From the NCBI RefSeq assembly GCF_022747945.1, contig NZ_JALDST010000001.1, positions 1,550,001-1,614,000 on the forward strand: DNA of 64,000 nucleotides, given 5' to 3'. The DNA is from Micromonospora sp. R77. GTDB lineage: Bacteria; Actinomycetota; Actinomycetes; Mycobacteriales; Micromonosporaceae. This document shows, in pieces, positions 41,036 through 55,732 of the stretch (the stretch's first letter is position 1; each line of letters begins with the position of its first letter). Below the pieces are notes generated by a model. The model saw nothing but the letters and a program-made list of their open reading frames with translations. It was not told the origin of the DNA and did not search any database. The translations under genes were made by a program, and so were the position numbers.

Positions 41036-41087
41036 GCGCGGGGCTCCTCCTCGAGTCCTCGACTGGACCCCGAGTGTAGAACGACAA

Positions 41088-41105
41088 CCTGAACGATCGC
41101 TAAGG
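41088..41105. promoter_or_regulatory. acyl-CoA operator site 1 (icmA)
   Basis: CCTGAACGATCGCTAAGG, an imperfect inverted repeat of CCTkArCG half-sites. Reads CCTTAGCGATCGTTCAGG toward icmA. The same sequence recurs with few changes at four other places in this window. Confidence 0.7.
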
Positions 41106-41127
41106 CAACTCACTCACCCACCCCCCC

Positions 41128-41502
41128 TTGTGCCCTCCCCTCGCCCACCAGCCGCAGCGGATGCGCCGGGCCACCACGCCCGGCGACCGGGTCCTGGCCT
41201 ACGTGGCGGCCAACCTCCACCTGGTCGCCAAGGGCGAGCACGGGGTCGTCCGCGGGCTGTCGGCGATCGCCTCCCCGGAAGTGCTCGCCGAGCCCAGCGG
41301 TCGGCTCCACGAACAGCTGCGCGCCCCGCTCGTGGCGGCCCTCGCCGAGCACGGCGCACCCGACCCGACCGGCACCGCCGAACTCATCCAGGCGATCGTC
41401 TACACCGCCTCCTACATGATCGAGAACTGCGTCGGGGAGGCCAAGGCCCGCTCGCTCGCGCGTGGGCTGCTGGAGCCGTACCTGCGGCAACCGACCGGCT
41501 GA
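41128..41502 (+). pseudogene. TetR-family regulator remnant, ligand-binding half only
   Basis: Only ~124 residues remain, matching the C-terminal ligand/dimer half of a TetR regulator (GDRVLAYVAANLHLVAKGEHGVVRGLSAI ... LIQAIVYTASYMIENCVGEAKARSLARGLLEPYL). The N-terminal helix-turn-helix (~70 residues) is absent: the DNA directly upstream is the icmA operator and C-rich junk (41106-41127), leaving no room before icmA. The natural arrangement would be a divergent tetR-icmA pair. A GTG at 41128 could still start a truncated peptide without DNA binding. Confidence 0.65.
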
Positions 41503-41561
41503 CCGCAAACGTCCCCGGGCGGCGGAATCCGGTCGTCCCATTCGGAACGGTGCGGTCCGGA

Positions 41562-41819
41562 TCAGGTGTAGAGCACCAGGTGCCAGTGCGGCGTGTGGGT
41601 GGCGGAATAGTTGCACGCGTAGTCGCGGTACGGCGAGTTCGGCTGATCGACCGCATTGCTTCCAGCCTGGTAGCAGGCGGTGCTGGAGGTGAACCAGCCG
41701 CCGTTCACCGTGCTGGCGCTCGCGGCTGCCGCCGTCGTCGCCAACGTCAGCGACACGGCGCCGACGACGAGCGCGCCGGAAACGCCGAGCCGGGTGGCCA
41801 TTGTTCCGATTCTAGTCAC
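41562..41819 (-). CDS. small secreted peptide with two cysteines
   Basis: 85 residues. A signal peptide (~1-36; LVVGAVSLTLATTAAAASAS) then ~49 mature residues with an aromatic/Cys pattern (GGWFTSSTACYQAGSNAVDQ and DYACNYSATHTPHWHLVLYT); the two Cys probably form a disulfide. GTG 41819 has AGGAAAGG at good spacing and a well-formed promoter upstream; ATG 41801 is possible. Composition is less GC-biased in the mature part than its neighbours. No named family recognised; looks like an exported small protein of unknown function. Confidence 0.7.
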   Translation of the reverse strand: MTRIGTMATRLGVSGALVVGAVSLTLATTAAAASASTVNGGWFTSSTACYQAGSNAVDQPNSPYRDYACNYSATHTPHWHLVLYT

Positions 41820-41900
41820 GGTATGCCTTTCCTGCCTCGATTCGGAGACCGCGCCCCGCGCGACAGAATGCGTCCGGGTCCGAGATCAGTTCGTCGTTCC

Positions 41901-41929
41901 TGTATACACGGGTACATCGCGGCATTCAA
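41901..41929 (-). promoter_or_regulatory. promoter of the small secreted peptide gene
   Basis: Minus strand TTGAAT (41924-41929) and TATACA (41901-41906) separated by 17 bases; transcription would start near 41894, about 75 nt before the GTG. The surrounding 41880-41945 is AT-richer than the window average. Confidence 0.55.
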
Positions 41930-41996
41930 GACTGGCAATGCGTCGCCCGTGAAAGGAAGGTGGCGTCCACCGCCGTCCGGCTCACCACCCCGGGTC

Positions 41997-42158
41997 GGAC
42001 AGGGTGGTGAAGTCCGCGTCCCGCCTGCGCGCGGCGTCGTACGGGCCTGCCCGCGCGCTCGTCCGGCGGCGATCTCGTCGGCGTTCATCCGCGGGGCTCC
42101 TCCTCGGCTCCTCGCCTGGAGTCCGCTTGTGGAACGCCTGCCTGAACGATCGCCAAGG
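41997..42158 (-). pseudogene. decayed duplicate of the icmA 5' region
   Basis: 162 bp that align with 40943-41105 (icmA first ~31 codons, ribosome site and operator) at roughly 85% identity. It can still be read as [16 protein letters not shown] before indels destroy the frame. The duplicate includes the operator copy CCTGAACGATCGCCAAGG. The rest of the copied gene is missing, so this is a non-coding relic. Confidence 0.8.
42141..42158. promoter_or_regulatory. acyl-CoA operator site 2 (in the icmA relic)
   Basis: CCTGAACGATCGCCAAGG, one base different from site 1. No intact gene starts beside it; it may still titrate the regulator. Confidence 0.55.
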
Positions 42159-42183
42159 ATGTTCGTACCGGCCGGTAACCGGG

Positions 42184-42597
42184 TCAGGTCGAGGGCACCG
42201 CCGGACCGCCCAGGGCCACGTCGTCCACCCGGATGTTGATCTCGTCGACCCGCAGCCCGTACGCCTCGACCGCCGACGTCACCGCGGCCCGGACGCCGTC
42301 GGTCACCTCGGGCACCGGCCGGCCGCCGTCGATCACCAGCACCAGGTTGACCACGGCGGCCCCGTTCGTGACGTGCGCCGAGCAGCCCCGCCGCGCGTCG
42401 CCCACCTGGTCCAGCCCGACCCGGTCGAGCACCGCGTTGAAGAACCGGGCCACGTCGCCGCCCAGCTCGGCCACCCCGGGCACCGACTTCGCGGCGGCCA
42501 CCGCGATCTTCTCCACCACCTCGTCGGAGACGTGCGTCGCGCCGCCCGCCACCGCGCTCGGCACCACCGACAGCTCCTGGGTCGCCTCGTCCGCCAT
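42184..42597 (-). CDS. Asp23/Gls24 family envelope stress protein
   Basis: 137 residues of the Asp23/Gls24 (DUF322) family: GGATHVSDEVVEKIAVAAAKSVPGVAELGG, GCSAHVTNGAAVVNLVLVIDGGRPVPEVTDGVRAAVTSAVEAYGLRVDEINIRVDDV. Such proteins attach to the membrane through an AmaP-like partner or act in envelope stress; no partner gene is near. ATG 42597 has GGGGAG five bases upstream; the open frame extends back without support. It follows meaB by 72 bp in the same direction. Confidence 0.88.
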   Translation of the reverse strand: MADEATQELSVVPSAVAGGATHVSDEVVEKIAVAAAKSVPGVAELGGDVARFFNAVLDRVGLDQVGDARRGCSAHVTNGAAVVNLVLVIDGGRPVPEVTDGVRAAVTSAVEAYGLRVDEINIRVDDVALGGPAVPST

Positions 42598-42669
42598 GCT
42601 CTCCCCACAACGTCGCACCGCCCCACGGGTGCCGTGAGGCGGTGCGAGCGTACTAGGTGGACGGCGCGT

Positions 42670-43674
42670 TCAGGAGCCGAGCTGCGCCAGCAGTTCGTCG
42701 GCCGCCGCGTACGGGTCGAGTGCGCCCTGCGCCACCTTCGCGGCGAGCGTCGGCAGTTCCGTACCGTCGCGCAGCGAACCGATCCGGGCGCGCAGCGCGC
42801 CGAGCGCGATGGCCTCGATCTCGGCGGCGGCCCGCGTCTCCCGGCGGCGGCGCAGCTCGTCGTGCTGCTCCAGCCAGCCGCGGTGCTTGTCGATGGCGGC
42901 GGCGATGTCGTCGATGCCCTCGCCCCGGGCGGCGATCGACCGGACCACCTGCGGTCGCCACTCCCCCGGGCCGCGCTCGCCCAGCGCGATCATGCCCTGG
43001 ATGTCGCGGACGGTGGCGTCGGCGCCGTCCCGGTCGGCCTTGTTGACCACGAAGACGTCGGCGATCTCCAGGATGCCGGCCTTGACCGCCTGGATCGCGT
43101 CGCCCATGCCGGGGGCGAGCAGCACCAGCGTGGTGTCCGCGAGGGAGGCCACCTCGACCTCCGCCTGGCCGACGCCGACGGTCTCCACCAGCACCACGTC
43201 GCAGCCGGCGCCCTCCAGCACGCGGACCGCCTGCGGCGTCGCCGCGGAGAGCCCGCCGAGGTGGCCCCGGCTGGACATCGAGCGGATGTAGACGCCCGGG
43301 TCGGTGGCGTGGTCCTGCATCCGGACCCGGTCGCCGAGGATCGCCCCGCCGGTGAACGGGCTGGACGGGTCGATGGCCAGCACCCCGACCCGGTGGCCGC
43401 GCGCCCGCAGCGCCCGGACCAGCTCGTTGGTGGTGGTGGACTTGCCCACGCCCGGCGAGCCGGTCAGGCCGACCACCTGGGCCTGGCCGGCGTACGGCGC
43501 GAGGGCCGCCGCGACCTGCGGCAGCACCTCGTCGCCGGACTCGACCAGGGTGATCAGCCGGGCCACCGCGCGGGGGTCACCGTCGCGGGCCCGTTCCACC
43601 AGCATGGGTACGTCCCGACTGCGGCGCACCGATCCGGTGGCCGCCGTCGGGGCGTGGTCGACCGCTTCGCTCAC
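42670..43674 (-). CDS. meaB: B12-mutase chaperone GTPase MeaB
   Basis: About 334 residues of the G3E GTPase MeaB/ArgK that gates cobalamin loading and protects acyl-CoA mutases. Walker A is VVGLTGSPGVGKSTTTNELV; other motifs are LAIDPSSPFTGGAILGDRVRM, SMSSRGHLGG, DVVLVETVGVGQAEVEV and FVVNKADRDG, plus the C-terminal helical dimer arm. GTG 43674 (VSEAVDHAPTA) leaves 46 bp after the thiolase stop; an earlier GTG at 43737 would overlap it by 17 bp. Probably co-transcribed with thiolase. Likely serves the IcmA- and MeaA-type mutases of this window. Confidence 0.92.
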   Translation of the reverse strand: MSEAVDHAPTAATGSVRRSRDVPMLVERARDGDPRAVARLITLVESGDEVLPQVAAALAPYAGQAQVVGLTGSPGVGKSTTTNELVRALRARGHRVGVLAIDPSSPFTGGAILGDRVRMQDHATDPGVYIRSMSSRGHLGGLSAATPQAVRVLEGAGCDVVLVETVGVGQAEVEVASLADTTLVLLAPGMGDAIQAVKAGILEIADVFVVNKADRDGADATVRDIQGMIALGERGPGEWRPQVVRSIAARGEGIDDIAAAIDKHRGWLEQHDELRRRRETRAAAEIEAIALGALRARIGSLRDGTELPTLAAKVAQGALDPYAAADELLAQLGS

Positions 43675-43720
43675 TGCACCACTCTCGCTCAGTACCGCCG
43701 AGGCTCGCCGGACGGGGTCG

Positions 43721-44917
43721 TCACTCGGTCTCGGCACCGGTGGGCACGTGAATGATCAGCGCGTCGCCCTGACCGCCGCCGCCGCAGAGCGCCGCCGCGC
43801 CGGTGCCGCCACCGCGCCGCTTCAGCTCCAGCGCGAGGGTGAGCACCAGCCGGGCCCCGGACATGCCGATCGGGTGGCCCAGTGCGATCGCGCCGCCGTT
43901 GACGTTGATCTTGTCGGTGCTGATCCCGAGGTCCCGCGCGGACTGGATGCCGACCTGCGCGAACGCCTCGTTGATCTCGATCAGGTCGAGGTCGTCGACG
44001 CTCAGGCCGCCCTTCTTCAGGGCGTGCTGGATGGCGTTGGACGGCTGCGAGTGCAGGGAGTTGTCCGGGCCGGCCACGTTGCCGTGCGCGCCGATCTCGG
44101 CGAGCCAGGTCAGCCCCAGCTCCTTGGCCTTCGCCTTGCTCATCACGACCACCGCGGCGGCGCCGTCGGAGATCGGCGAGGAGCTGCCGGCGGTGATGGT
44201 GCCGTCCTTGGCGAACGCCGGGCGCAGCTTGGCCAGCGACTCGGCGGTGGTGTCCGGGCGGATGCCCTCGTCCTCGCTGATCACCAGCGGGTCGCCCTTG
44301 CGCTGCGGGATGATCACCGGGGTGATCTCGTCGGCGAAGTGGCCGTTCTTCTGGGCGGCGGCGGCGCGCTGGTGGCTGGCGGCGGAGAAGGCGTCCTGCT
44401 CCTCGCGGGTGATGCCGTGCTTCGCGCCGAGCCGCTCGGTGGACTCGCCCATCGAGCAGCAGTCCCAGGCGTCGGTGAGCCCGTCGAGGGCCATGTGGTC
44501 GGAGATCGTGACGTCGCCGTACTTGTAGCCGGTGCGCTGGCCGCGCAGCAGGTGCGGGGCGTTGGTCATCGACTCCATGCCGCCGGCCACCACGATGTCG
44601 AACTCGCCGGCCCGGATGAGCTGGTCGGCCAGGGCGATCGCGTCCAGGCCGGAGAGGCAGACCTTGTTGATGGTCAGCGCCGGCACGGACATCGGGATGC
44701 CCGCCTCCACGGCCGCCTGGCGAGCCGGGATCTGGCCGGTGCCGGCCTGGAGCACCTGTCCCATGATCACGTACTGCACCTGGTCGGGGGCGACGCCGGC
44801 CCGCTCCAGTGCGGCCTTGATGGCCACCCCGCCGAGCTTCGTCGCCGGGAGGTCCTTGAGGTTGCCGAGCAGGCGCCCCATGGGGGTCCGCGCGCCGCTG
44901 ACGATCACCGAAGCCAT
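43721..44917 (-). CDS. acetyl-CoA C-acetyltransferase (thiolase)
   Basis: 398 residues of biosynthetic thiolase that condenses two acetyl-CoA to acetoacetyl-CoA, the entry to the ethylmalonyl-CoA pathway. Catalytic motifs: acyl-Cys in [45 protein letters not shown] with the base His, and [13 protein letters not shown] with the second Cys. GGAGG lies six bases before ATG 44917. Divergent from mce over a 63-bp gap holding an acyl-CoA operator; followed by meaB. Function is firm; naming (atoB/phaA/fadA) is not. Confidence 0.95.
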
Positions 44918-44950
44918 TGCCTGCCTCCGAGGGGGGTGCCGACCTGTACG

Positions 44951-44968
44951 CCTTAACGATTGTTCGGT
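44951..44968. promoter_or_regulatory. acyl-CoA operator site 3 (thiolase-mce)
   Basis: CCTTAACGATTGTTCGGT, matching site 1 (reverse complement CCTTAGCGATCGTTCAGG) at 14 of 18 positions, in the divergent gap between thiolase and mce; it can serve both genes. Confidence 0.65.
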
Positions 44969-44974
44969 CAGACT
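44969..44974 (+). promoter_or_regulatory. candidate -10 box of a leaderless mce transcript
   Basis: CAGACT with six bases to the mce ATG and no Shine-Dalgarno sequence; the same spacing as the TAGACT before the aldehyde dehydrogenase and TACCCT before nucS. Confidence 0.4.
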
Positions 44975-44980
44975 AGCGCC

Positions 44981-45451
44981 ATGGCTGAGAACTCCCCCGT
45001 CGAGCCCGCTGCGGACTACGTCACAGACATCGGGCTGCGCCGCATCGACCACGTCGGGATCGCCGTCGCCGACCTGGACGCCGCGATCGACTTCTACCGC
45101 CGCACCTTCGGGATGCGCTGCGTACACACCGAGACGAACGCCGAGCAGGGCGTCCGGGAGGCGATGCTGGCCGTCGGCCCGACCGCCGAGGGCGGCTACC
45201 TGCAGCTGCTCGCCCCGCTCTCCCCGGAGTCCACCATCGCGAAGTTCCTGGACCGCAACGGGCCGGGGGTGCAGCAGGTCGCGTACACGGTGGCGGACAT
45301 CGACGCGGCCTGCAAGGCGCTGCGCGACCGGGGCGTCCGGGTGCTCTACGAGACCCCGAAGCGCGGCACCGCCGGCTCCCGGGTCAACTTCGTCCACCCG
45401 AAGGACGCCGGCGGCGTCCTGGTCGAACTGGTCGAGCCCGCCGACCACTGA
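44981..45451 (+). CDS. mce: methylmalonyl-CoA epimerase
   Basis: 156 residues of the VOC fold that epimerises (2R)/(2S)-methylmalonyl-CoA and, in this pathway, ethylmalonyl-CoA. Metal and base residues are in the usual places: [54 protein letters not shown] and [11 protein letters not shown] 44981 gives the usual N-terminus. No ribosome site is visible, consistent with a leaderless mRNA. Divergent from thiolase, followed by a hairpin and then ccr. Confidence 0.93.
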
Positions 45452-45464
45452 CCCCCGCCGCGCT

Positions 45465-45519
45465 CGGCAACGGGTGCGTTTCTGGTCGCTCGGACGACCG
45501 GAGACGCACCCGTTTGCCG
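45465..45519. terminator. hairpin after mce
   Basis: CGGCAACGGGTGCGTTTCTG pairs with its near complement (45495-45519) with one bulge and two wobble pairs, loop of 6 nt. A ~24-bp arm; may be another dispersed palindrome acting as a terminator. Confidence 0.55.
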
Positions 45520-45657
45520 TCACCGCGGAGTTCGTCGGGAGCTGGCGGGACGGACAGCTTCCCGAACAGTGGGAAGAGGCGCGGCAGTGCGCGGTTCCGC
45601 GTTCCCACGGACAGCTCCACGCATCGGTCGATGCAGTTTTTCACACAGGACTTCCGA

Positions 45658-45675
45658 CCCTAGCTACCGTTCAGT
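45658..45675. promoter_or_regulatory. acyl-CoA operator site 4 (ccr)
   Basis: CCCTAGCTACCGTTCAGT, 14 of 18 matches to site 1 read in the same sense (CCTTAGCGATCGTTCAGG), 133 bp before the ccr start. Confidence 0.5.
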
Positions 45676-45807
45676 AACGTCCGCCCTCACAGGAGCGGCG
45701 ACCGGTGCGGATGTGTCGATCACCGACATGGCGGTCCCGGCGTACCGGCGCCGACTATGGCAGCACCGCCCCCGCCCGACGCGGGTGCGGAGGAACGGGA
45801 GGGCACC

Positions 45808-47163
45808 GTGCAGGACATCCTCGAAGCGATCATGGCGGCGGAGGGCTCGGCGCAGCCGGAGCGGGAACTCGCCGGCCTCGCCGGCCTGCCGGTACCGGAG
45901 AGCTACCGCGGCGTGGTCGTCCGCGCGGAGGACACCCGGATGTTCGACGGGATGGCCACCCGCGACAAGGACCCGCGCAAGGCGCTGCACGTCCAGGAGG
46001 TGCCCACCCCGGAGCTCGCCCCGGGCGAGGCCCTGGTCGCGGTGATGGCCAGCGCCATCAACTACAACACGGTCTGGACCAGCATCTTCGAGCCGATGTC
46101 CACCTTCAAGTTCCTCCAGCGCTACGGCCGGCTCTCCGAGCTGACCCGCCGGCACGACCTGCCGTACCACGTGGTCGGGTCGGACGCGGCCGGCGTGGTG
46201 CTGCGGACCGGGCCGGGCGTGACGAAGTGGAAGGCCGGCGACGAGGTGGTCGCGCACTGCCTCTCCGTCGAGCTGGAGGACTCGGCCGGCCACGACGACA
46301 CCATGCTCGACCCGCAGCAGCGGATCTGGGGCTTCGAGACCAACTTCGGCGGCCTCGCCGAGCTGTGCGTCGTCAAGGCCAACCAGCTGATGCCGAAGCC
46401 GCGCCACCTGAGCTGGGAGGAGGCCGCCAGCCCGGGGCTGGTCAACTCCACCGCGTACCGGCAGCTGGTCTCGCACCACGGGGCCAACATGAAGCAGGGC
46501 GACGTGGTGCTGATCTGGGGCGCCTCCGGCGGCCTGGGCGGCTACGCCACCCAGATGGCGCTCAACGGCGGGGCGATCCCGGTCTGCGTGGTCTCCTCGC
46601 CGGAGAAGGCCGAGCTGTGCCGGTCGATGGGCGCCGAGCTGGTCATCGACCGCTCCGCCGAGGGCTTCCGGTTCTGGAAGGACGAGCAGACCCAGGACCA
46701 GGACGAGTGGCGCCGCTTCGGCGAGCGGATCCGGGAGCTGACCGGCGGCGAGGACCCGGACATCGTCTTCGAGCACCCCGGCCGGGAGACCTTCGGCGCC
46801 AGCGTCTATGTCGCGAAGAAGGGTGGCACCATCGTCACCTGCGCCTCCACCAGCGGCTTCATGCACCAGTACGACAACCGCTATCTCTGGATGCACCTCA
46901 AGCGGATCGTCGGCAGCCACTTCGCCAACTACCACGAGGCCTGGCAGGCCAACCGGCTCGTCGCGCTGGGCCAGATCCACCCGACGGTGTCCAAGACCTA
47001 TCCGCTGGAGCAGACCGGCCAGGCCGCGTACGAGGTGCACCGCAACGCGCACCAGGGCAAGGTCGGGGTCCGCTGCCTCGCCCCGACCGACGGTCTCGGC
47101 GTACGGGACACCGGGCTGCGCTCCCGGCACGAGACGGCGATCAACCGGTTCCGGGGCCACTGA
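45808..47163 (+). CDS. ccr: crotonyl-CoA carboxylase/reductase
   Basis: 451 residues of the medium-chain reductase family enzyme that converts crotonyl-CoA, NADPH and CO2 to ethylmalonyl-CoA. Seen: the CO2-pocket segments INYNTVW, GFETNFGG and HFANYHEAW; NADPH-binding LIWGASGGLGGYATQMAL; and the ccr-specific insert FWKDEQTQDQDEWRRFGERI. GTG 45808 is chosen: GGGAGGG sits four bases before it and VQDILEAIMAAEG is the family N-terminus, while ATG 45757 adds 17 unlike residues. Central gene of the pathway; preceded by an acyl-CoA operator. Confidence 0.95.
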   Translation: MQDILEAIMAAEGSAQPERELAGLAGLPVPESYRGVVVRAEDTRMFDGMATRDKDPRKALHVQEVPTPELAPGEALVAVMASAINYNTVWTSIFEPMSTFKFLQRYGRLSELTRRHDLPYHVVGSDAAGVVLRTGPGVTKWKAGDEVVAHCLSVELEDSAGHDDTMLDPQQRIWGFETNFGGLAELCVVKANQLMPKPRHLSWEEAASPGLVNSTAYRQLVSHHGANMKQGDVVLIWGASGGLGGYATQMALNGGAIPVCVVSSPEKAELCRSMGAELVIDRSAEGFRFWKDEQTQDQDEWRRFGERIRELTGGEDPDIVFEHPGRETFGASVYVAKKGGTIVTCASTSGFMHQYDNRYLWMHLKRIVGSHFANYHEAWQANRLVALGQIHPTVSKTYPLEQTGQAAYEVHRNAHQGKVGVRCLAPTDGLGVRDTGLRSRHETAINRFRGH

Positions 47164-47252
47164 TCCGACCGGGTGACCCCGGCGTGACCATTGCGGTGAG
47201 CGGGCCAATCCCTTTCCACCGCACCGGGAGACCATTCGAGTGAGTCGGCGAC

Positions 47253-47286
47253 AAAGGGCCGCGGGGCAGGTCCCCGCGGCCCTTTT
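47253..47286 (+). terminator. rho-independent terminator of ccr
   Basis: AAAGGGCCGCGGGG pairs perfectly with CCCCGCGGCCCTTT (loop 5 nt) and is followed by TTTT. It also shields the next gene from ccr read-through. Confidence 0.8.
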
Positions 47287-47443
47287 CCCGGTCACCCGGA
47301 GTATCGACCGACCCGCCCGGGAGCTGCCAAGATCGCCGTTCGGTCCGGTCCCGGCGGGCATGGTGAGTTGACCATGTAATGAGGACACGAAAGCTCCGGA
47401 CCGCTCTTGCGAAGCACCCCGGGGGGTCTGGGAGTATGTCCCA

Positions 47444-48697
47444 ATGCCCCAGCAGCAGTCCTCCCCTCTTGCGTTCTTCGATAACGCGAACTCGCAGCCC
47501 GATTTCACCGTTGGCCTGCGCGGCTACAACACCGGTCAGGTCGATGACTTCATCGGTCGGCTGACCGCCGCGCTGACCCAGTCCGAGCAGGCCCGCGCCG
47601 AGGCCGAGCAGCGGATGAACGACGCCCAGCGTCGGCTCCGGCAGGCCGAGCAGCGGCAGAGCGGGCTGGAGCAGAAGCTCGCCGACACCAACAAGCAGCT
47701 CGAGGAGAACAGCCGGCCCACCCTCTCCGGCCTCGGCACCCGGGTCGAGCAGATCCTCCGGCTGGCCGAGGAGCAGGCCAACGACCACCGCAACGAGGCC
47801 AAGCGGGAGTCGGAGGGCATCCTCTCCGCCGCCCGCCTCGAGGCCCGCGAGATCACCGACAAGGCGCGCGCCGAGGCGGCCGCCATGAAGGCCACCGCCG
47901 AGCGGGAGGCCGGCAACGTCCGGACCACCGCCGAGCGGGAGGCCGCCGAGGTCCGGGTGCAGGCCCGCCGCGAGGCCGACACGCTGCGCGCCGACGCCGA
48001 CCGGGAGACCAAGCAGCTGCGTACGGTCACCGCGCACGAGGTGGCCGAGCTGAAGTCCACCGTCGAGCGTGAGGTCGCCACCCTCCGGGCCACCGCCGAG
48101 CGGGAGATCACCCAGCAGCGGGCGAAGGCCGCCCGGGAGGCCGAGGAGAAGCGCGCCGAGGCGACCAAGCTGCTCACCGACGCCCGCGACAAGCGCGACA
48201 AGGACCTCCAGGCCCTGGAGCTCCAGCTCGCCGAGCGGCGGGAGAAGGCCGAGCGCGAGGAGTCGGAGCGGCACGCCGCCCAGGTCGCGCAGACCCAGAA
48301 GCTGGTCGGCGAGGCCGAGCAGCGGGCCCGGGCCGCCCAGGAGCGGGCCAAGGAGATCGAGCAGCGGGCCGAGGCCCGCCGGGTCGAGTCGGAGCGCACC
48401 GCCAACGAGACGGTCGAGAAGGCCAAGGCGCTGGCCGAGAAGACCCTCAACGAGGCCAAGGCCGAGTCGCAGCGCCTGCTCAGCGAGGCCCGCACCGAGG
48501 CCGAGCTGACCACCCAGGCCGCCCGCCGCGAGGTCGAGGACCTCACCCGGCAGAAGGACGCGGTCACCTCCCAGCTCGGCCAGATGCTCTCCGGTCTCGC
48601 CGGCATCGTGCCGGGCGTCCCGGCGGCCCCGGCCAAGGCCGAGCCGGCCAAGGCGGAGGGTACCGAGAAGCGGGTCGCCGCCGAATCCGCCAGCTGA
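47444..48697 (+). CDS. filP: FilP-like DivIVA-domain coiled-coil protein
   Basis: 417 residues. The N-terminus (~15-75) is DivIVA/Wag31-like (FTVGLRGYNTGQVDDFIGRLTAALTQ), then SGLGTRVEQILRLAEEQANDHRNEAKRE. Residues 151-238 form eight 11-residue units of TAEREAAEVRV type (a hendecad coiled coil), followed by further coiled coil and a C-terminal MLSGLAGIVPGVP region. This layout matches actinobacterial FilP (often annotated cellulose-binding protein), a polar-growth cytoskeletal filament. GGGAG lies 9 bases before the ATG. The next gene is a paralogous, longer coiled-coil protein; in Streptomyces filP and scy lie beside mce and thiolase, as here. Confidence 0.85.
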   Translation: MPQQQSSPLAFFDNANSQPDFTVGLRGYNTGQVDDFIGRLTAALTQSEQARAEAEQRMNDAQRRLRQAEQRQSGLEQKLADTNKQLEENSRPTLSGLGTRVEQILRLAEEQANDHRNEAKRESEGILSAARLEAREITDKARAEAAAMKATAEREAGNVRTTAEREAAEVRVQARREADTLRADADRETKQLRTVTAHEVAELKSTVEREVATLRATAEREITQQRAKAAREAEEKRAEATKLLTDARDKRDKDLQALELQLAERREKAEREESERHAAQVAQTQKLVGEAEQRARAAQERAKEIEQRAEARRVESERTANETVEKAKALAEKTLNEAKAESQRLLSEARTEAELTTQAARREVEDLTRQKDAVTSQLGQMLSGLAGIVPGVPAAPAKAEPAKAEGTEKRVAAESAS

Positions 48698-48866
48698 GCA
48701 CCACCCGCAGCGGGGCATGAGCCACGGCGCGGGGTGACACCGGGTGACCGGTGGATCCCCGCGCCGTCATGCGTTCCCGGGTCCGTTACGTCGCATCAGT
48801 GAAGTAGCTCCCAACAGGGCCGTCCGTATCGCCCCAGCAGAGCCGGATGCGTGTGAGGATGGGGGC

Positions 48867-50903
48867 ATGTCGCACGGCGAGGAACTGTTCGCTCTCTCCG
48901 GGGACGTGACCACGGAGCCCAGCTTCGAGTCCGCTCTGAAGGGGTACGCGAAACGACAGGTCGACCGGTACGTCGCTCGCGCGGAACACGAGATCGCAAC
49001 CCTCACCGCCGAGCGGGAGCAGGCGTACACCCAGATCCACAAGCTGGCCGGGCAGGTCGAGGTGCTGCAACGCGACCTCGCCCAGGTGCGCAAGCAGGTG
49101 GGCGTGGTGGACCGGGCCTCGTTCCGGCATCTCGGGCCCCGGGTGGAGCAGATTCTCGCGATGGCCGAGGAGCAGGCCGACGACATCGTGGCCGCCGCCA
49201 ACGAGGAGATCGAGGCACGCCGGGCCGCCGCCGAGCACATCATCGCCGAGGCCCGGGAGCAGGCCGCCCAGGCCCTCAAGGACTTCGAGATCGCCCTCGC
49301 CGCCCGGCGGGCCGAGGAGGAGCGGCACACCGCCGCCCGCAAGGCCGAGGCGGAGTCCACCCTCAAGGCCGCCAAGGAGCAGGCCGGCAAGCTCCGCAAG
49401 GACGCCGCCGACGAGGCGACCGCCCTGCGCCGGACCGCCCAGGAGGCGCTGGCCAAGGCGCAGCAGGAGGCCACCCAGCTCCGGGACACCGCCAAGGAGA
49501 TCCACGCCCGCGCCCAGCAGGAGTCCGCCCGGCTGCGCGAGGCGGCCAAGGAGGCACTCGCCAAGGCCCAGCAGGAGGCCACCCAGCTCCGCGAGGCGGC
49601 CAAGGAGGTGCACGCCAAGGCCCAGCAGGAGGCGAAGCGGCTCACCGACTCCGCCGCCGAGGCCGGCCGGGCCACCCACGCCAAGGCGCTCCAGGAGGCC
49701 AAGAAGATCGTCGACGACGCGGAGGAGGCGGCGAAGGCCACCCGCGGCCGGGCCCGGACCGAGGCCAACCGGCTGACGACCGAGGCCGCCGAGGCCGGCA
49801 AGCGCAACCGGGCCGAGGTCGAGGCGTACGTCCAACGGATGCGGAGCGAGACCGAGGCGTACGTGCAGCAGGCCCGGGCGCAGACCCAGCAGGAGCTGGG
49901 CGCCTGGCGGGCCGGGGTGGAGCAGGAGGTCAACTCCCGGCGGGAGGCGGCCGACAAGGAGCTGGCCCAGCGCCGCGCCGCCGCCGAGCAGGAGTTCGCC
50001 AAGCGCCGCGACGAGCTGGACAAGCAGCACAGCACCCGGCACGCCGAGCTGGAGAAGCTGCACACGAGCCGGCAGGCCGAGTTGGAGCAGGCGTACACGG
50101 CCCGCCGGCACGAGATCGAGCAGGGGGCCGAGGCGATCCGCCAAGCCGCCGAGGCCGACGCGACGACCCTGCGGCAGCGGGCCGAGGACGAGTCCGCCGA
50201 GCTGCTGCGCCGGGCCGAGGCCGAGGCGGGCGACCGGCGCCGCAAGGCCGACGAGCACGTCGCCGCGTCCCGCCGCCAGTTCGAGGAGTACGCGGCCACC
50301 ACGCAGCAGCACCTGGCCACCACCCAGCAGCACCTTGCCGCCACCCAGCAGGAGGTGGCCGCCGGCCGGCAGCAGCTCGCCCAGGTGATGCTGGAGATCG
50401 CCCAGGCCCAGCAGGAGCTGGCCGACCTGCGGACCGAGACGTGGAAGTCCCGGCAGGAGTCGGACGAGCTCCAGCGCAGACTGGCCGAGCTCCAACTCCA
50501 GGGGACCACCGGGAAGCCCGGTGCCGGCCTCGCGGCCACTCCCGTCTCGGCGGACGGCGTCGGCAGGAAGGCGGGCACCGGGACCAAGGAGCCCGCCACC
50601 GGGGCGAAGGAGCCGGTCACCGCGACCAGGGAGGCCACCGGGAAGGAGACCGGCGCCGCGGCGCCGGTCGCCGACGCGGGGAAGGCGCGGCCGGTCGGCG
50701 AGCCGGTGACCACGATGGACGGCGCCGGCGCGACCGCCGGGGTGGACGGTGAGCCGACGGTGGCCGCCGTGCCCGGTGAGGGCGGCCGGGGCGCCACTCC
50801 CACGAAGATCACCAGCACCGGTGAGAACGGCAAGCGGCCGACGAAGCCCACCGTCGACGAGCGCAGCGCCAAGCCGAGCACCGTCACCGTCGAGTCCGAC
50901 TGA
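48867..50903 (+). CDS. Scy-like long coiled-coil protein
   Basis: 678 residues. The N-terminus (FESALKGYAKRQVDRYVARAEHEIATLTAERE) is DivIVA-like and HLGPRVEQILAMAEEQADD parallels the block in the preceding FilP-like protein. The middle carries 17-residue repeats (AKAQQEATQLRDTAKEI, RAQQESARLREAAKEAL, AKAQQEATQLREAAKEV), three of which make the 51-residue period described for Scy. Long Glu/Gln/Arg coiled coil follows to ~590, then a disordered Gly/Thr/Val tail. Predicted cytoplasmic, polar-growth scaffold. GTGAGGATGGG precedes ATG 48867. Shorter than the ~1300-residue Scy of Streptomyces, so orthology is tentative. Confidence 0.85.
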   Translation: MSHGEELFALSGDVTTEPSFESALKGYAKRQVDRYVARAEHEIATLTAEREQAYTQIHKLAGQVEVLQRDLAQVRKQVGVVDRASFRHLGPRVEQILAMAEEQADDIVAAANEEIEARRAAAEHIIAEAREQAAQALKDFEIALAARRAEEERHTAARKAEAESTLKAAKEQAGKLRKDAADEATALRRTAQEALAKAQQEATQLRDTAKEIHARAQQESARLREAAKEALAKAQQEATQLREAAKEVHAKAQQEAKRLTDSAAEAGRATHAKALQEAKKIVDDAEEAAKATRGRARTEANRLTTEAAEAGKRNRAEVEAYVQRMRSETEAYVQQARAQTQQELGAWRAGVEQEVNSRREAADKELAQRRAAAEQEFAKRRDELDKQHSTRHAELEKLHTSRQAELEQAYTARRHEIEQGAEAIRQAAEADATTLRQRAEDESAELLRRAEAEAGDRRRKADEHVAASRRQFEEYAATTQQHLATTQQHLAATQQEVAAGRQQLAQVMLEIAQAQQELADLRTETWKSRQESDELQRRLAELQLQGTTGKPGAGLAATPVSADGVGRKAGTGTKEPATGAKEPVTATREATGKETGAAAPVADAGKARPVGEPVTTMDGAGATAGVDGEPTVAAVPGEGGRGATPTKITSTGENGKRPTKPTVDERSAKPSTVTVESD

Positions 50904-51024
50904 TTTCGCCGACCCTCGGCCTGCCGAAGACCGGTCGAGGGCTCGGGCCGCCAGGTCGACGGAGGCCGCCCTCGGGCTCATCCTCCGCGAGGGGGTCCTC
51001 CCCCGGCAGGAGTCCCGCTGAGCC

Positions 51025-51834
51025 TCAGCCGGCCTGGCGCTGCTGCGGCCCGGGGACCGGGGTGTCCGCGAAGGAGGCGACCGTCCGGTCCGCGTACGCG
51101 CTGACGTCGCCGGTCTCCACCGGGCCGTCCCAGGTGGTCGGCAGGGGCACCGGCACCGCCGGGTTGACCCGGCGGACGATCTCGTCGAGCACGGTCTCCG
51201 CGTCGCCGACCCAGAGGTGCTTGGCACCGGGCACCCCGACCACCTCGGCCTGCGGCACCGCCGCGAACCGCTCCCGCGCCTCGTCGGGGCGCAGGTAGTC
51301 GTCGAACTCGGGCACCAGCGCGGTGAGCGGCTTGCCGCTGGAGGCCCACTGGGTCAGGTCGTCCGGCGCGGAGTAGCGCAGCGGCGGGGAGAGCAGGATC
51401 GCGCCGGCCACCGCCGGGTCGCAGCCGTACTTCAGGGTCAGGTCGGTGCCGAACGACCAGCCGACCAGCCAGATGTTCGGCAGCTCGGCGAACTCCGCGT
51501 ACTCGATGGCGGCGGCGACGTCGAAGCGCTCGCCGACCGCGTTGTCGAAGGCGCCCGCGCTGGTGCCGCGGACGCTGCTGGTGCCCCGGGTGTTGAACCG
51601 GAGCACGGCCAGGTCGGCCAGGGCGGGCAGCCGCCAGGCCGCCTTGCGGAACACGTGGCTGTCCATCATCCCGCCGTGGGTGGGCAGCGGGTGCAGGCAG
51701 ACCAGGGTGCCGGCGGGCTCCCGGTCCAGCGGCCGGGCCAGCTCACCGACCAGCGTCAGCCCGTCGGCGGTGTGCAGCTCGATGTCCTCCCGGTGACCGG
51801 GCAGGATCGTCGACGCGCGGATCGGTGTGCTCAC
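51025..51834 (-). CDS. alpha/beta hydrolase
   Basis: 269 residues with an alpha/beta hydrolase fold: substrate lid region DIELHTADGLTLVGELARP, LVCLHPLPTHGGMMDSHVFRK with the oxyanion loop, LRFNTRGTSS, nucleophile elbow WLVGWSFGTDL (Ser), VPEFDDYLRPDE and KHLWVGDAETVLDEI with the His. It resembles the YfhR/BAAT-like group acting on small esters or peptides, probably cytoplasmic. GTG 51834 is used, GTG 51855 is an alternative. Alone between the scy-like gene and a small zinc-ribbon protein. Confidence 0.87.
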   Translation of the reverse strand: MSTPIRASTILPGHREDIELHTADGLTLVGELARPLDREPAGTLVCLHPLPTHGGMMDSHVFRKAAWRLPALADLAVLRFNTRGTSSVRGTSAGAFDNAVGERFDVAAAIEYAEFAELPNIWLVGWSFGTDLTLKYGCDPAVAGAILLSPPLRYSAPDDLTQWASSGKPLTALVPEFDDYLRPDEARERFAAVPQAEVVGVPGAKHLWVGDAETVLDEIVRRVNPAVPVPLPTTWDGPVETGDVSAYADRTVASFADTPVPGPQQRQAG

Positions 51835-51900
51835 CGTCCCAGTCTCGCGCGTCACCGCCCGCGCCGCCCGCCCGGGCGGAAACCGGGTGATCCAGATCGC

Positions 51901-52227
51901 TCAGCCGTGCCGGGGAGCGCCCCGACCGCGCTGGATCACCGGCCCGCGCCGGTCCCGGGCCCGCCAGCAGCCGCTGTGCCAGTGCCGCCGGTCGGTGAGG
52001 TCACCCCGGTCGTCCGCCGGCCAGGCCACCAGGTGCGGCACGCCGGGGCGGATCTCCTGGTCACAGCCGGGACAACGGTACGTCTTGGTCGACGCCCCGC
52101 CGCTGATCCCGCGTACCTGCCAGTCGCCGTCGCGCCACTGCTGCACGGTGGGCACGCCCTGGCGGGCCCGGTCGGAGTCCAGCTGGGTGGTCTCGTCCCG
52201 GCGGGGGCGGTTGCGACGGGGGCTCAC
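51901..52227 (-). CDS. small zinc-ribbon-like protein
   Basis: 108 residues, basic N-terminus (SPRRNRPRRDE), then a likely zinc site: YRCPGCDQEIRPGVPHLVAW followed by RRHWHSGCWRARD (CxxC...HxxHxxC pattern). Widespread but uncharacterised in actinobacteria; I give no function. GTG 52227 is chosen by the family-like start; GTG 52233 is also possible. Confidence 0.75.
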   Translation of the reverse strand: MSPRRNRPRRDETTQLDSDRARQGVPTVQQWRDGDWQVRGISGGASTKTYRCPGCDQEIRPGVPHLVAWPADDRGDLTDRRHWHSGCWRARDRRGPVIQRGRGAPRHG

Positions 52228-52296
52228 GGTCACCAAGCGTACGGGCCGGCGGCGGGACCGGCCCGGGTCGGGCGGGTCCCGCCGAGGCGGCTGGCG

Positions 52297-53359
52297 TCAA
52301 CCCCAGGTCTCCGGGCGGGTCGGGTCGCCGGCCACCTGCGCGCCGGCCAGGACGGCCGCCGCGTCCAACTCGGTGAAGCCGGGGGTCGGCCAACCGTACT
52401 CGGCCGTGAGGCGTGCCTTCGGGAAGCCGAGCAGCTCCAGCCGCTTGAGGTCACCCAGGGCGTACCGGACGGCCGGCCGCCCGTTGATGGCGGTGTCCCC
52501 CTTCCTCGGCGAGTCGGCCAGGCCGACCGCGTACCGGTAGGTGACGCCCATCCGCTCCTCGGCGGGGCCGGTGATGGTGAACCGGGCGGTCAGCAGGTTC
52601 GGGAAGGTGCTCGCGTCGACCGCGCAGGCGGTGACGTGCGCGCCGGCCGGCAGGGAGCTCAGCCGCAGCGGCCCGCCGCAGCGCCGGGCCTCGGTCAGCC
52701 GGAGCGCACCGGCCACGGCGCGCAGACCCGCGTCGTCGGACGCCCGAACGGTGGCGCGGGCGTACACCCCGGGGGCGGGGCGCCACAACCGGACCTGGAG
52801 CGCCCCGCCGTCGCCGGCCACCTGGACCCGCCGACCGTCGAACGCCGAGTCGAGGGCCAGCCGGGACACGTCCACCGGCATCCCGTCGAGGCTGTACCGC
52901 CGCAGCGCCGTCGCCGAACGGGCCAGCTCCAGGGTGACCGGCTGCCCCACGCCGAGGTCGAGCCGGACCGCCTCCACCTCCTGCTCGACCTGCCAGGCCA
53001 GGTAGCGGCCCTTGGCGGGGGCGATGCCGAAGTGCAGCACCCCCGGGTCGGTGCCGACCACCTGCGGTGCGGCGGCGGCCCCGGCGCGGCCGGGAACACC
53101 GGTGGCACCGGGTTCGGCGCGGCCGGGGTCACCGGCCCGGCTCCGGTGCGCAGCCGGTCCACGCCGGGCAGCCCCGGGCCGGCGGTCAGGCCGGCCCCGA
53201 GCACCGCCACCAGCGCGAGGCCGCCGCCGGCCACGGCGAGCCGCCGGTGCCGCCGGGCCGCCCGCCGGCCACCGCCCGCGCGGTGAGCCGGTCGATGTCC
53301 ACCGGGCGCTCGGCGCGCTCCCGCAGGGTACGAAGGATCTGCTGGTCGAGGTCGGTCAC
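52297..53359 (-). pseudogene. ECF-sigma-linked membrane protein (anti-sigma-like), two frameshifts
   Basis: Three frames make one product of ~354 residues. Part 1: TDLDQQILRTLRERAERPVDIDRLTARAVAGG. Part 2: a transmembrane segment (LAVAGGGLALVAVLGAGL) and Pro-rich linker. Part 3: an extracytoplasmic domain from VGTDPGVLHFG to the end. The frames break in C runs 53261-53263 and 53079-53082, each repaired by one base. It begins inside the sigma gene stop (GTGA overlap) and so forms an operon with it; the layout (short cytoplasmic part, one span, outer domain) suits an anti-sigma or sensor partner, but I see no zinc-type anti-sigma motif. Confidence 0.7.
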
Positions 53360-53850
53360 GGCCGGCTCCCGTGGGTCATCGGGGCGCCGACGCGCTCCCG
53401 GAGATGGGCGAGCGCCCGCATCGCGTGGGTGCGGACGGTGACCGGGGAGCAGTCGAGGATCTGCGCGATCGTCGGGTCGTCGAGGTCCTCGTAGTAGCGC
53501 AGCACCAGCACGGCGCGCTGCCGGTCGGGCAGGCCGAGGATGAGCCGCCACAGCTCGTCCCGCTCGACCGTCTCGTCGTCGAGGTGGCCGCGCTGCGCCC
53601 GGTCCTCGAACGTGGCGGTGGCCACCTCACGGCTGGACCGGCGCCGCCACCACGAGGCGTTCGCGTTGACCAGCATCCGCCGGACGTAGACGTCGGGCCG
53701 GTCGGCCCGGTCGATCTTCCGCCAGTGCACGTACGCGCGGGCCAGCACGTCCTGGGTCAGGTCCTCGGCCCGGTGCTCGTCGCCGGTCAGCAGCCGGGCC
53801 AGGCGGATCAGGGCCGGGCCGCGGCTGCCGACGTACTCCTCGAAGGTCAC
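53356..53850 (-). CDS. ECF RNA polymerase sigma factor, SigE-like family
   Basis: 164 residues with sigma2 (FEEYVGSRGPALIRLARLLTGDEHRAEDLTQDVLARAYVHWRKI) and sigma4 (LGLPDRQRAVLVLRYYEDLDDPTIAQILDCSPVTVRTHAMRALAHLRE) domains of an SigE-type extracytoplasmic function sigma factor. GTG 53850; no clear ribosome site. Its 3' end overlaps the membrane partner gene by 4 bp. Signal unknown. No promoter of the ECF -35/-10 kind was recognised nearby. Confidence 0.92.
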   Translation of the reverse strand: MTFEEYVGSRGPALIRLARLLTGDEHRAEDLTQDVLARAYVHWRKIDRADRPDVYVRRMLVNANASWWRRRSSREVATATFEDRAQRGHLDDETVERDELWRLILGLPDRQRAVLVLRYYEDLDDPTIAQILDCSPVTVRTHAMRALAHLRERVGAPMTHGSRP

Positions 53851-53891
53851 ACCCTCATGACGCCGTCACCGGCGTGCGGCGTTGACCCGGG

Positions 53892-55682
53892 TCAGCGGTT
53901 GGTGTGGTCGCGGAAGCCGCGACCGCTCTTGCGGCCGAGGTAGCCGGCCGTGACCAGGTGCTCCAGCAGCGGCGCGGGGGCGAAGCCCGGCTCCCGCAGC
54001 TCCAGGTAGAGCTCCCGCTGGATGGCCAGCGAGACGTCCAGGCCGACGACGTCGAGCAGTTCGAACGGCCCCATCGGGTAGCCACAGCCGAGCTTCATCG
54101 CGTGGTCGATGTCGTCGGCGGTGGAGTAGCTCGCCTCCAGCATCTTCACCGCGTCGTTCAGGTACGGGAAGAGCAGCGCGTTGACGATGAAGCCGGACCG
54201 GTCGCCGCAGACCACGCCGGTCTTGCCGAGCGCCGCGCAGACCGCGCGGGCGGTGGCGGTGGTCTCCGCCGAGGTGCGGATGGTCTGCACCACCTCGACC
54301 AGCGGCATGATCGGCGCCGGGTTGAAGAAGTGCAGGCCGACCACGTCGGCGGGGCGCTGGGTGGCCATCGCGACGTCGATCACCGGCAGCGACGAGGTGG
54401 TGGTGGCGAGCACGACGCCCGGCTTGCAGATCTCGTCCAGGCTGGCGAAGAGGGCCTTCTTGACGCTCAGCTCCTCGACCACCGCCTCGACCACCAGGTC
54501 GACGTCGGCGAGGTGGTCCAGCGTGGCGGACCAGTTGATCCGGCCGAGTGCCGCGTCCCGGTCGGCCTCGCTGAGCTTGCCGCGTACCACGCCCTTGTTG
54601 AGCGAGGTCTTCACCGTCTCGAAGACCTTGGCGGACTTCTCCGCGCCCCGGGTCACCGAGACGACCTCGTAGCCGGCCTTCGCGAAGACCTCGATGATGC
54701 CGGTGGCCATCGTGCCGGAGCCGACCACGCCGACCTTCGCGATGGCCCGCGCGCCGTCGGCGAGCGCGGGCCCCGTCGTGGTCGGGGTCTGCTCGTCGGG
54801 TACGACCCTCGGCGAACCGGGCTTCTCGTAGGTGTAGAAGCCCCGGCCGGACTTCCGGCCGAGCAGCCCGGCGGTGACCATCTGCTTGATCAGCGGCACC
54901 GGGGCGTGCCGGCGGTCCCGCCCGCCGCGCCGGTACATGGTGTCCAGGATCTCGTAGGCGGTGTCCAGGCCGATCAGGTCCATCAGCGCGAGCGGGCCCA
55001 TCGGCAGCCCGCAGCCGAGCTTCATCGCGGCGTCGATGTCCTCGCGGGTGGCGTACCTGCCCTCGAACATGCTCACCGCGTGGTTGAGGTAGCCGAAGAG
55101 CAGCGCGTTGGCGATGAAGCCGGCGCGGTCGCTGATCGTGACGTCGACCTTGCCGAGCCGCTCGCACAGCGCCTCGACGTCGGCCACCACGTCGGCGGAG
55201 GTGACCACCGTGCGGACCACCTCGACGAGCTTCATCACCGGCGCCGGGTTGAAGAAGTGGATGCCGATGACCTGGTGGGGCCGGGTGGTGGCGACCGAGA
55301 TCTCGGTGACGCTCAGCGACGAGGTGTTGGTGGCGAGGATGGCCTCGGGCTTGCAGACCCGGTCCAGCTCGGCGAAGATCCGCTGCTTCAGGTCGAGCTG
55401 CTCGGGGACCGCCTCGATCACCAGGTCGACCGAGTGCAGCGCGTCCAGCCCGACCTGGAAGTCGACCCGGGCGTGCAGGGCGTCCCGGTCCGCCTCGGCG
55501 AGCTTGCCCTTGGCGACGGCCCGGTCCGTGGAGCCCTTCAGGGTGGCCCGGCCGCGCTCCAGCGCGTTCGCCGAGATCTCCACGGCCACCACGTCGACGC
55601 CGTTGCGGGCGAAGACCTCGACGATGCCGGCACCCATGGTGCCCAGACCCACCACACCGACGCTGGTGAACTCGCGCGCCAC
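53892..55682 (-). CDS. tandem 3-hydroxyacyl-CoA dehydrogenase
   Basis: 596 residues containing two complete 3-hydroxyacyl-CoA dehydrogenase modules in one chain. Each half has a GxGxMGxG-type NAD site (VGVVGLGTMGAGIVEVF and VGVVGSGTMATGIIEVF), IEAVPEQL or VEAVVEEL, HFFNPAPVMKLVEVVRT with the catalytic His-Asn, and a C-terminal dimerisation region ending LGRKSGRGFYTYEK and LGRKSGRGFRDH. It oxidises or reduces (3S)-hydroxybutyryl-CoA in the pathway. GTG 55682 has GGGAGG at good spacing, and an acyl-CoA operator lies 33-50 bp upstream. Confidence 0.93.
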   Translation of the reverse strand: MAREFTSVGVVGLGTMGAGIVEVFARNGVDVVAVEISANALERGRATLKGSTDRAVAKGKLAEADRDALHARVDFQVGLDALHSVDLVIEAVPEQLDLKQRIFAELDRVCKPEAILATNTSSLSVTEISVATTRPHQVIGIHFFNPAPVMKLVEVVRTVVTSADVVADVEALCERLGKVDVTISDRAGFIANALLFGYLNHAVSMFEGRYATREDIDAAMKLGCGLPMGPLALMDLIGLDTAYEILDTMYRRGGRDRRHAPVPLIKQMVTAGLLGRKSGRGFYTYEKPGSPRVVPDEQTPTTTGPALADGARAIAKVGVVGSGTMATGIIEVFAKAGYEVVSVTRGAEKSAKVFETVKTSLNKGVVRGKLSEADRDAALGRINWSATLDHLADVDLVVEAVVEELSVKKALFASLDEICKPGVVLATTTSSLPVIDVAMATQRPADVVGLHFFNPAPIMPLVEVVQTIRTSAETTATARAVCAALGKTGVVCGDRSGFIVNALLFPYLNDAVKMLEASYSTADDIDHAMKLGCGYPMGPFELLDVVGLDVSLAIQRELYLELREPGFAPAPLLEHLVTAGYLGRKSGRGFRDHTNR

Positions 55683-55714
55683 GACCGGCCTCCCAGAAAG
55701 CTCCGCGCCGCCGA

Positions 55715-55732
55715 CATGAACGGCCGCTAAGG
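55715..55732. promoter_or_regulatory. acyl-CoA operator site 5 (3-hydroxyacyl-CoA dehydrogenase)
   Basis: CATGAACGGCCGCTAAGG; read toward the gene it is CCTTAGCGGCCGTTCATG, 15 of 18 identical to site 1. Confidence 0.65.

Follow-up and report, generated by a model that had tools for sequence, protein, structure and literature searches.

A probable AccR/BkaR-type TetR operator recurs before acyl-CoA genes in Micromonospora sp. R77

In Streptomyces avermitilis, the TetR protein AccR represses short-chain acyl-CoA metabolism (Lyu et al. 2020, as relayed in PMC10933834, PMC8546615, and PMC8176718); the excerpts of these sources give its motif as GTTAA-N6-TTAAC, a 16-bp palindrome, and its ligands as methylcrotonyl-, propionyl-, and acetyl-CoA. 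According to the excerpted part of PMC3920632, BkaR (MSMEG_4718 / Rv2506) is an autoregulated TetR dimer encoded next to accD1/accA1, with the operator core GTTA(N)T(N4)A(N)TAAC. Here, we analyzed a stretch of 64,000 nucleotides from Micromonospora sp. R77 (G000:C1:1550001-1614000, hereafter the window; own genome 7.14 Mb; 73% G+C), in which a near-palindrome stands at the promoters of icmA, a decayed icmA duplicate, the divergent thiolase and mce genes, ccr, and a fused 3-hydroxyacyl-CoA dehydrogenase gene. The mutase, epimerase, thiolase, dehydrogenase, and Ccr connect valine/leucine breakdown, butyryl-CoA, and the ethylmalonyl-CoA pathway. The five sites are very probably binding sites of one short acyl-CoA-responsive repressor.

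The original prediction had placed an 18-bp element at five positions, and all five sequences were confirmed at their coordinates. Matches to this 18-mer numbered 18, 17, 14, 14, and 15 of 18 for sites 1 to 5; the claim that sites 1, 2, 3, and 5 match at 14 or more bases held, but site 4, which had been left out of this group, reaches 14 too. Three sites lay within three mismatches of the 18-mer, against 0.02 expected (100 shuffles). A 16-bp core, approximately CTTARCG-NN-CGTTCAG, is more useful than the 18-mer. Using a symmetric 16-bp weight matrix, we scored operator 1 in the icmA promoter (41089..41104, minus strand; core CTTAGCGATCGTTCAG) at 26.8, operator 2 in the duplicated icmA promoter (42142..42157, minus strand; CTTGGCGATCGTTCAG) at 19.8, operator 3 in the divergent thiolase/mce promoter (44952..44967, plus strand; CTTAACGATTGTTCGG) at 21.3, operator 4 in the ccr promoter (45659..45674, plus strand; CCTAGCTACCGTTCAG) at 12.7, and operator 5 in the fused 3-hydroxyacyl-CoA dehydrogenase promoter (55716..55731, minus strand; CTTAGCGGCCGTTCAT) at 15.5. 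By the matrix, the ccr site is the weakest of the five; the original prediction had called it weaker. Operator 2 lies inside the duplication and has no called gene within 350 bp downstream.

At the window threshold of 12.5, exactly these five matches were found, compared with 0.27 on average and at most 2 in 200 first-order Markov resamples. A second matrix, built from other genomes and leaving out sequences confined to the own genome as well as those identical with site 1, ranked the same five first to fifth (26.3, 19.7, 18.1, 16.5, and 12.2), with the sixth place at 7.0. On these grounds, the original observation holds. By eye, the boxes lie on or next to likely −10 or −35 elements, a placement that suits steric repression.

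We then compared promoters among relatives, taking the comparison family as presumed Micromonosporaceae and genus g80 as presumed Streptomyces; the relatives are a sample, and loci are the best-scoring 30 matches only, which favors close relatives. The icmA site was present in 28 of 30 family loci including the own one, 18–111 bp upstream of the called start; L057 and L063 are the exceptions. For icmB, 306 kb from icmA, 24 of 30 loci including the own scored at least 10, mostly with GTTACCGTTCGTTMAG; icmA and icmB are two subunit genes of one mutase, and the presence of sites at both, so far apart, supports a regulon. In 20 syntenic regions, with site scores read per promoter, the icmA site reached at least 16 in 18 of 20, the thiolase (19/19) and mce (18/18) promoters of the relatives carried the same shared site at 14.4 or more, ccr had a site in 5/5 (8.7–16.2), and the double dehydrogenase in two of three, as well as in G097 (L111). 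Of nine other family genomes with close ccr homologues (at least 81% identity), seven carried the site at ccr, including a weak one in G070 (8.7) and one 286 bp upstream in G055, and CCCTAGCTACCGTTCAGTAAC forms a conserved island, with one change, in four aligned ccr promoters including the own.

These comparisons bear on whether the recurrence is mere chance or conserved promoter sequence with no operator function. The overlap with likely −10/−35 elements and the weakness of the own ccr site would suit such an explanation. However, five matches stand against 0.27 expected, and the box is near-palindromic and common to unrelated promoters. In the same syntenic regions, the promoters of meaB (19), an asp23-like gene (12), and two divIVA-like genes (19 and 18) gave no score above 6.5, and among 169 other genes a single one exceeded 8, which was the ccr site read from the divergent gene. 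On the matrix statistics and the syntenic-promoter comparison, we rejected chance recurrence, which appears highly improbable.

The whole own genome was scanned with the pattern CTTARCGNNCGTTMAG at up to two mismatches, with the reversed pattern as a control, and gave 62 strand matches versus 39. The 62 matches correspond to 50 distinct places, of which 49 are on contig 1 and the other is on contig 3; 48 of the 49 were placed in gene context, and the contig-3 place was scored separately. The remaining contig-1 place (5888498) was inside a gene in an earlier placement. Eighteen places scored at least 15.4, and none of them lies inside a called gene. Twelve of these stand before genes for acyl-CoA or branched-chain amino acid enzymes: icmA, accD1, accA1, thiolase/mce, biotin carboxylase, 3-hydroxybutyryl-CoA dehydrogenase, ilvE, two acyl-CoA dehydrogenases, an HpcH/HpaI (lyase-like) gene, icmB, and the double dehydrogenase. 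One more is the icmA promoter copy, and five are other or uncertain: ppdK, the gene behind the site at 3528872, a peptidase gene with an acyl-CoA dehydrogenase-like gene after it, 319234, and 2177247, the last two with no evident pathway link. Below 15.4, the sole pathway gene was ccr. The predicted bias toward one pathway thus survived the test that might have refuted it. Sites at ppdK, ilvE, HpcH/HpaI, biotin carboxylase, and the two acyl-CoA dehydrogenases are known from the own genome only. Most of the likely regulon (accA1, accD1, icmB, and the acyl-CoA dehydrogenase genes, among others) lies outside the window, and the 3-hydroxybutyryl-CoA dehydrogenase gene with its site lies 4 kb beyond the window end.

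Some of these places deserve separate mention. The ppdK (pyruvate phosphate dikinase) site, scoring 23.5 at G000:C1:1323394-1323409, stands 28 bp before the gene and possibly links acyl-CoA supply to gluconeogenesis. A palindrome scoring 24.9 at G000:C1:319234-319249, beside a gene resembling those for nonribosomal peptide synthetases and with no gene start within 150 bp, is perhaps the box of another TetR. The gene behind the site at 3528872 had no match in Pfam, NCBIfam, or PDB, and by eye resembles a MaoC-type hydratase.

A census of the exact pattern in 61 family genomes found it in 45, with 60 strand matches versus 4 for the reversed pattern. They occupy 54 distinct places, 34 of which adjoin icmA by coordinates. 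Among the other 20, 15 stand before genes that we named by eye from their proteins: accR-like TetR (4), accD1 (4), etfB (2), and accA1, hmgL, thiolase, 3-hydroxybutyryl-CoA dehydrogenase, and double dehydrogenase (1 each); the other five are L103, L104, L107, L109, and L115. CTTAACGATCGTTAAG, a 16-bp palindrome whose TTA/TAA half-sites keep the register published for AccR and BkaR, occurs at accD1 on contigs of G050, G052, G053, and G088, and three of these were placed before the accD1 gene. The exact sites at etfB (electron-transfer flavoprotein), in two family genomes (L098 and L108), would tie the electron acceptor of the acyl-CoA dehydrogenases into the regulon.

The candidate regulator is a TetR protein encoded at G000:C1:2848533-2849120, directly before accA1-hmgL and 1.26 Mb from the window sites. 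It carries the N-terminal DNA-binding domain PF00440 (63 bits), and its best solved structures are 4g12, 6yj2, and 6yl2 (about 147 bits), which we take to be BkaR of mycobacteria; the next, 9b7y (Mce3R), scored 99.8. It shows 45–55% identity to TetRs that are mostly divergent from accD1-like genes in other actinobacteria. Orthologues with 61–99% identity are single-copy in 57 of 61 family genomes, and the next match in the own genome has an E value of 2.5e-11. The four genomes lacking an orthologue (G042, G044, G072, and G098) are 69–94% complete and in 430–1080 contigs. As called, accA1 follows the TetR gene in 29 of 30 family loci including the own, and a site lies 74–121 bp upstream of the TetR gene in 15 loci and between TetR and accA1 in 6, with one locus having both (20 of 30 loci in total). 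In a class-wide search, TetR homologues were found in 152 of 296 genomes; the viral contigs searched held no relative. In 27 non-family loci with sequence, where the TetR gene is mostly divergent from an accD1-like gene, we observed palindromes at or near GTTARYG-NN-CRYTAAC, often paired, which fit the AccR motif and the BkaR register. The predicted TetR-type dimer operator before genes of one pathway is supported. The accompanying remark that no named regulator was known for the box is superseded, as the box is a variant of the AccR/BkaR operator.

The sites are thus probably operators of this AccR/BkaR-type TetR, encoded outside the window and acting through acyl-CoA-released repression. In this mechanism, a TetR dimer would bind the near-palindrome CTTARCG-NN-CGTTCAG, overlapping or adjoining the core promoters of the icmA, thiolase/mce, ccr, and 3-hydroxyacyl-CoA dehydrogenase genes and so blocking their transcription. 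Short acyl-CoAs accumulating from leucine/valine or acetate/butyrate metabolism would bind the C-terminal domain and release the dimer. Leucine breakdown, butyryl/isobutyryl-CoA interconversion, and entry into the ethylmalonyl-CoA pathway would then be turned on together. What we observed are the sites, their conservation and gene bias, the relationship and neighborhood of the TetR, and a correlation of one helix residue with one operator base (below); we infer from these the binding by the candidate, the repression, the ligands, and the residue as the cause of the base preference, and ligand release is proposed by analogy with AccR of S. avermitilis.

Several observations weigh against this assignment. 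With 39 matches for the reversed pattern against 62 in the own genome, loose matches at two mismatches are mostly noise. The ccr site in the window is weak, no site was found at ccr in G061 and G057, and three more distant family ccr copies (56–71% identity; G012, G059, and G049), which may be paralogues serving another purpose, have none either. The candidate scores 225.9 bits on NCBIfam NF050111 (SACE_7040 family), below the cut-off of 250. Ten of the 30 family loci gave no site of at least 11.5 near the TetR gene, and the own genome has its site only behind that gene, before accA1. Finally, G042 (94% complete, 810 contigs) has an exact icmA site but yielded no orthologue.

The operators could also be real and yet be bound, in whole or in part (for example at icmA and ccr), by one or more other TetRs, with the control exerted by the AccR-like TetR confined to its own leucine-degradation cluster. 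At least 22 TetR matches exist in the own genome, and some TetR loci have no site. In addition, the accD1 sites are symmetric, and the icmA sites are asymmetric (CTTAGCG..CGTTCAG) and near-invariant, as if differently selected. Against this, one 16-bp box is common to the TetR gene, accA1, accD1, and icmA, and within the window the only TetR adjoining a site is a remnant linked to ABC transporters (below). Moreover, the two genomes of genus g49 (G072 and G098, both fragmented) lack the TetR as well as close homologues of icmA and icmB, a pattern that fits joint loss of the three. Control by other TetRs seems unlikely to us, and the AccR/BkaR-type TetR is retained as the candidate.

Residue 48 of the candidate corresponds to x in the motif GPALYxHF, a position within the recognition helix of the TetR fold. 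All 42 Micromonosporaceae loci have H here, and all 47 loci of other families have R (42) or K (5); the 80 named Streptomyces loci all have R. To compare the operators, we used a score that ignores the outermost base and read both halves 5' to 3'. The best operator near the TetR gene had G at both outer positions in all 43 loci of other families having one. Among the 26 Micromonosporaceae loci having one, 17 had C at both positions and 9 at one position; none had G at both. Judged by sequence, the candidate is of the same protein group as AccR and BkaR, with a variant operator that departs from the published outer G..C.

The thiolase/mce promoter showed the same difference: its site reads C..G in all 18 family loci, whereas 11 of 16 outside loci, including all 10 Streptomyces, have G..C. 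Eight of these 11 outside sites score 10.5, between the 95% (10.0) and 99% (12.1) random levels, and share a similar place and one sequence; five Streptosporangiaceae-like loci had no thiolase/mce site. Neither site type was found at icmA in any of 14 outside loci, including 0 of 10 Streptomyces, and the best ccr copy in Streptomyces genomes was without a site (0/9). The control of icmA and ccr therefore looks gained in Micromonosporaceae, and that of thiolase/mce may be older. The helix and the sites seem to have changed together in the family while the gene set grew.

We are evenly divided on a fuller scenario, in which the AccR-type repressor of a Micromonosporaceae ancestor would have changed from R/K to H48, and the outermost pair of its operators would have changed regulon-wide, including thiolase/mce. 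This repressor would also have taken over the isobutyryl-CoA mutase, encoded by two unlinked subunit genes, and the entry to the ethylmalonyl-CoA pathway, forming a family-wide switch between branched-chain amino acid breakdown, C2/C4 assimilation, and polyketide extender supply. The regulator may instead be correctly assigned and the link between residue 48 and the outer base reflect shared ancestry alone, both having changed once in one clade, unconnected. The correlation sets a single clade apart, with H in one family and R/K in every other family sampled, and may represent one historical change; the operators of other families also differ among themselves in inner bases. However, the thiolase/mce promoter, common to both groups, differs between them at the outer pair, and residue 48 lies within the recognition helix. 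Unconnected change thus appears a real but rather doubtful possibility. If the coupled change is true, one helix residue and one operator base pair coupled regulon-wide would be a clear natural case of transcription factor/operator coevolution. Many polyketides of Micromonosporaceae are built from these acyl-CoA pools. If true, the control of leucine breakdown, isobutyryl-CoA mutase, epimerase, thiolase, and ccr by a single predicted repressor would provide a testable carbon-control model and a simple engineering handle.

Genes beside the sites were called with a GC-frame script. The icmA-like large subunit of a B12-dependent acyl-CoA mutase (39347..41035, minus strand) matched PF01642 (677 bits) and TIGR00641 (655 bits). 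The acetyl-CoA C-acyltransferase (thiolase) gene (43721..44917, minus strand; start codon at 44917 read by eye) matched PF00108, PF02803, and TIGR01930 (462 bits), all for 43721-44908. The methylmalonyl-CoA epimerase gene, mce (44981..45451, plus strand), matched TIGR03081 (145 bits, cut-off 115), and the crotonyl-CoA carboxylase/reductase gene, ccr (45757..47163, plus strand, start at 45757 or 45808), matched TIGR01751 (612 bits, cut-off 379) for 45808-47163. The double 3-hydroxyacyl-CoA dehydrogenase (53892..55682, minus strand) contains two PF02737 stretches and matched NF005875 and NF004474. A second B12-dependent mutase gene, perhaps for ethylmalonyl-CoA mutase, lies at 62492-64000 and continues past the window end to 1614471; no operator of at least 11.5 was found before it.

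The icmA relic proposed earlier is genuine. A 164-bp duplication, with copies spaced 1053–1054 bp apart, comprises the icmA 5' end and promoter (copy one, 40942..41105, minus strand; D1 and D2 repeat families) and a decayed second copy (41996..42158, minus strand; 86% identical over 117 nt and 94% over 50 nt). The flanking icmA copies suggest how the insert between them (41105-41996) arose. In 19 relatives measured, the next called gene stands 10–295 bp upstream of icmA, and these short gaps make the own insert look recent. The insert holds a short secreted-peptide-like frame (by eye) and a TetR C-terminal remnant (41161..41502, plus strand), which matched no Pfam family. Matches to the remnant were found in 5 of 41 genomes searched including the own (4 of 40 others). 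The three best of its intact homologues follow ABC-transporter genes, at loci where the operator was not found. With its intact relatives linked to ABC transporters, the remnant beside icmA was ruled out as the regulator.

Other described TetR regulators were also compared. PccD of Saccharopolyspora erythraea, like its Mycolicibacterium namesake, is described in the excerpts seen as a TetR repressor of propionyl-CoA carboxylase genes and a BkaR homologue. The box printed there for S. erythraea, T/ATGACGG/CTGT/CTGT/A, is unlike the window box, and PccD was dropped as the best name. CcrR of Methylobacterium extorquens (PMC4207312) is a TetR-family protein acting on an ethylmalonyl-CoA pathway gene, an activator of one gene by the cited title; it is proteobacterial, and its likeness to the candidate is one of description. 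In the open-licence literature, we found no paper placing icmA, ccr, or mce under an AccR-type TetR, which is no proof of novelty.

BkaR and the candidate share the position of the TetR gene beside acyl-CoA carboxylase genes and the 16-bp operator register, and unlike the candidate, BkaR, as the available part of its description and the solved-structure sequences indicate, has a branched-chain keto-acid degradation regulon, an outer base G, and helix R. The exact AccR motif occurs in 9 of 10 Streptomyces genomes, with no control match, at the gap between the TetR and accD1 genes. In four of these genomes (L241, L243, L245, and L249), it also stands before an enoyl-CoA hydratase-like gene, in agreement with the AccR targets echA8 and echA9 named in the excerpts. 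An AccR homologue of S. albus has, in the text available, a locus number next to those of a carboxylase pair. As far as its excerpted description extends, AccR resembles the candidate as a TetR tied to accD1/accA1-hmgL, with a 16-bp palindrome in the same register and short acyl-CoA targets. The Micromonosporaceae system differs in having C in one or both outer operator positions and H48 instead of R, and, unlike in the Streptomyces tested, icmA and ccr carry sites.

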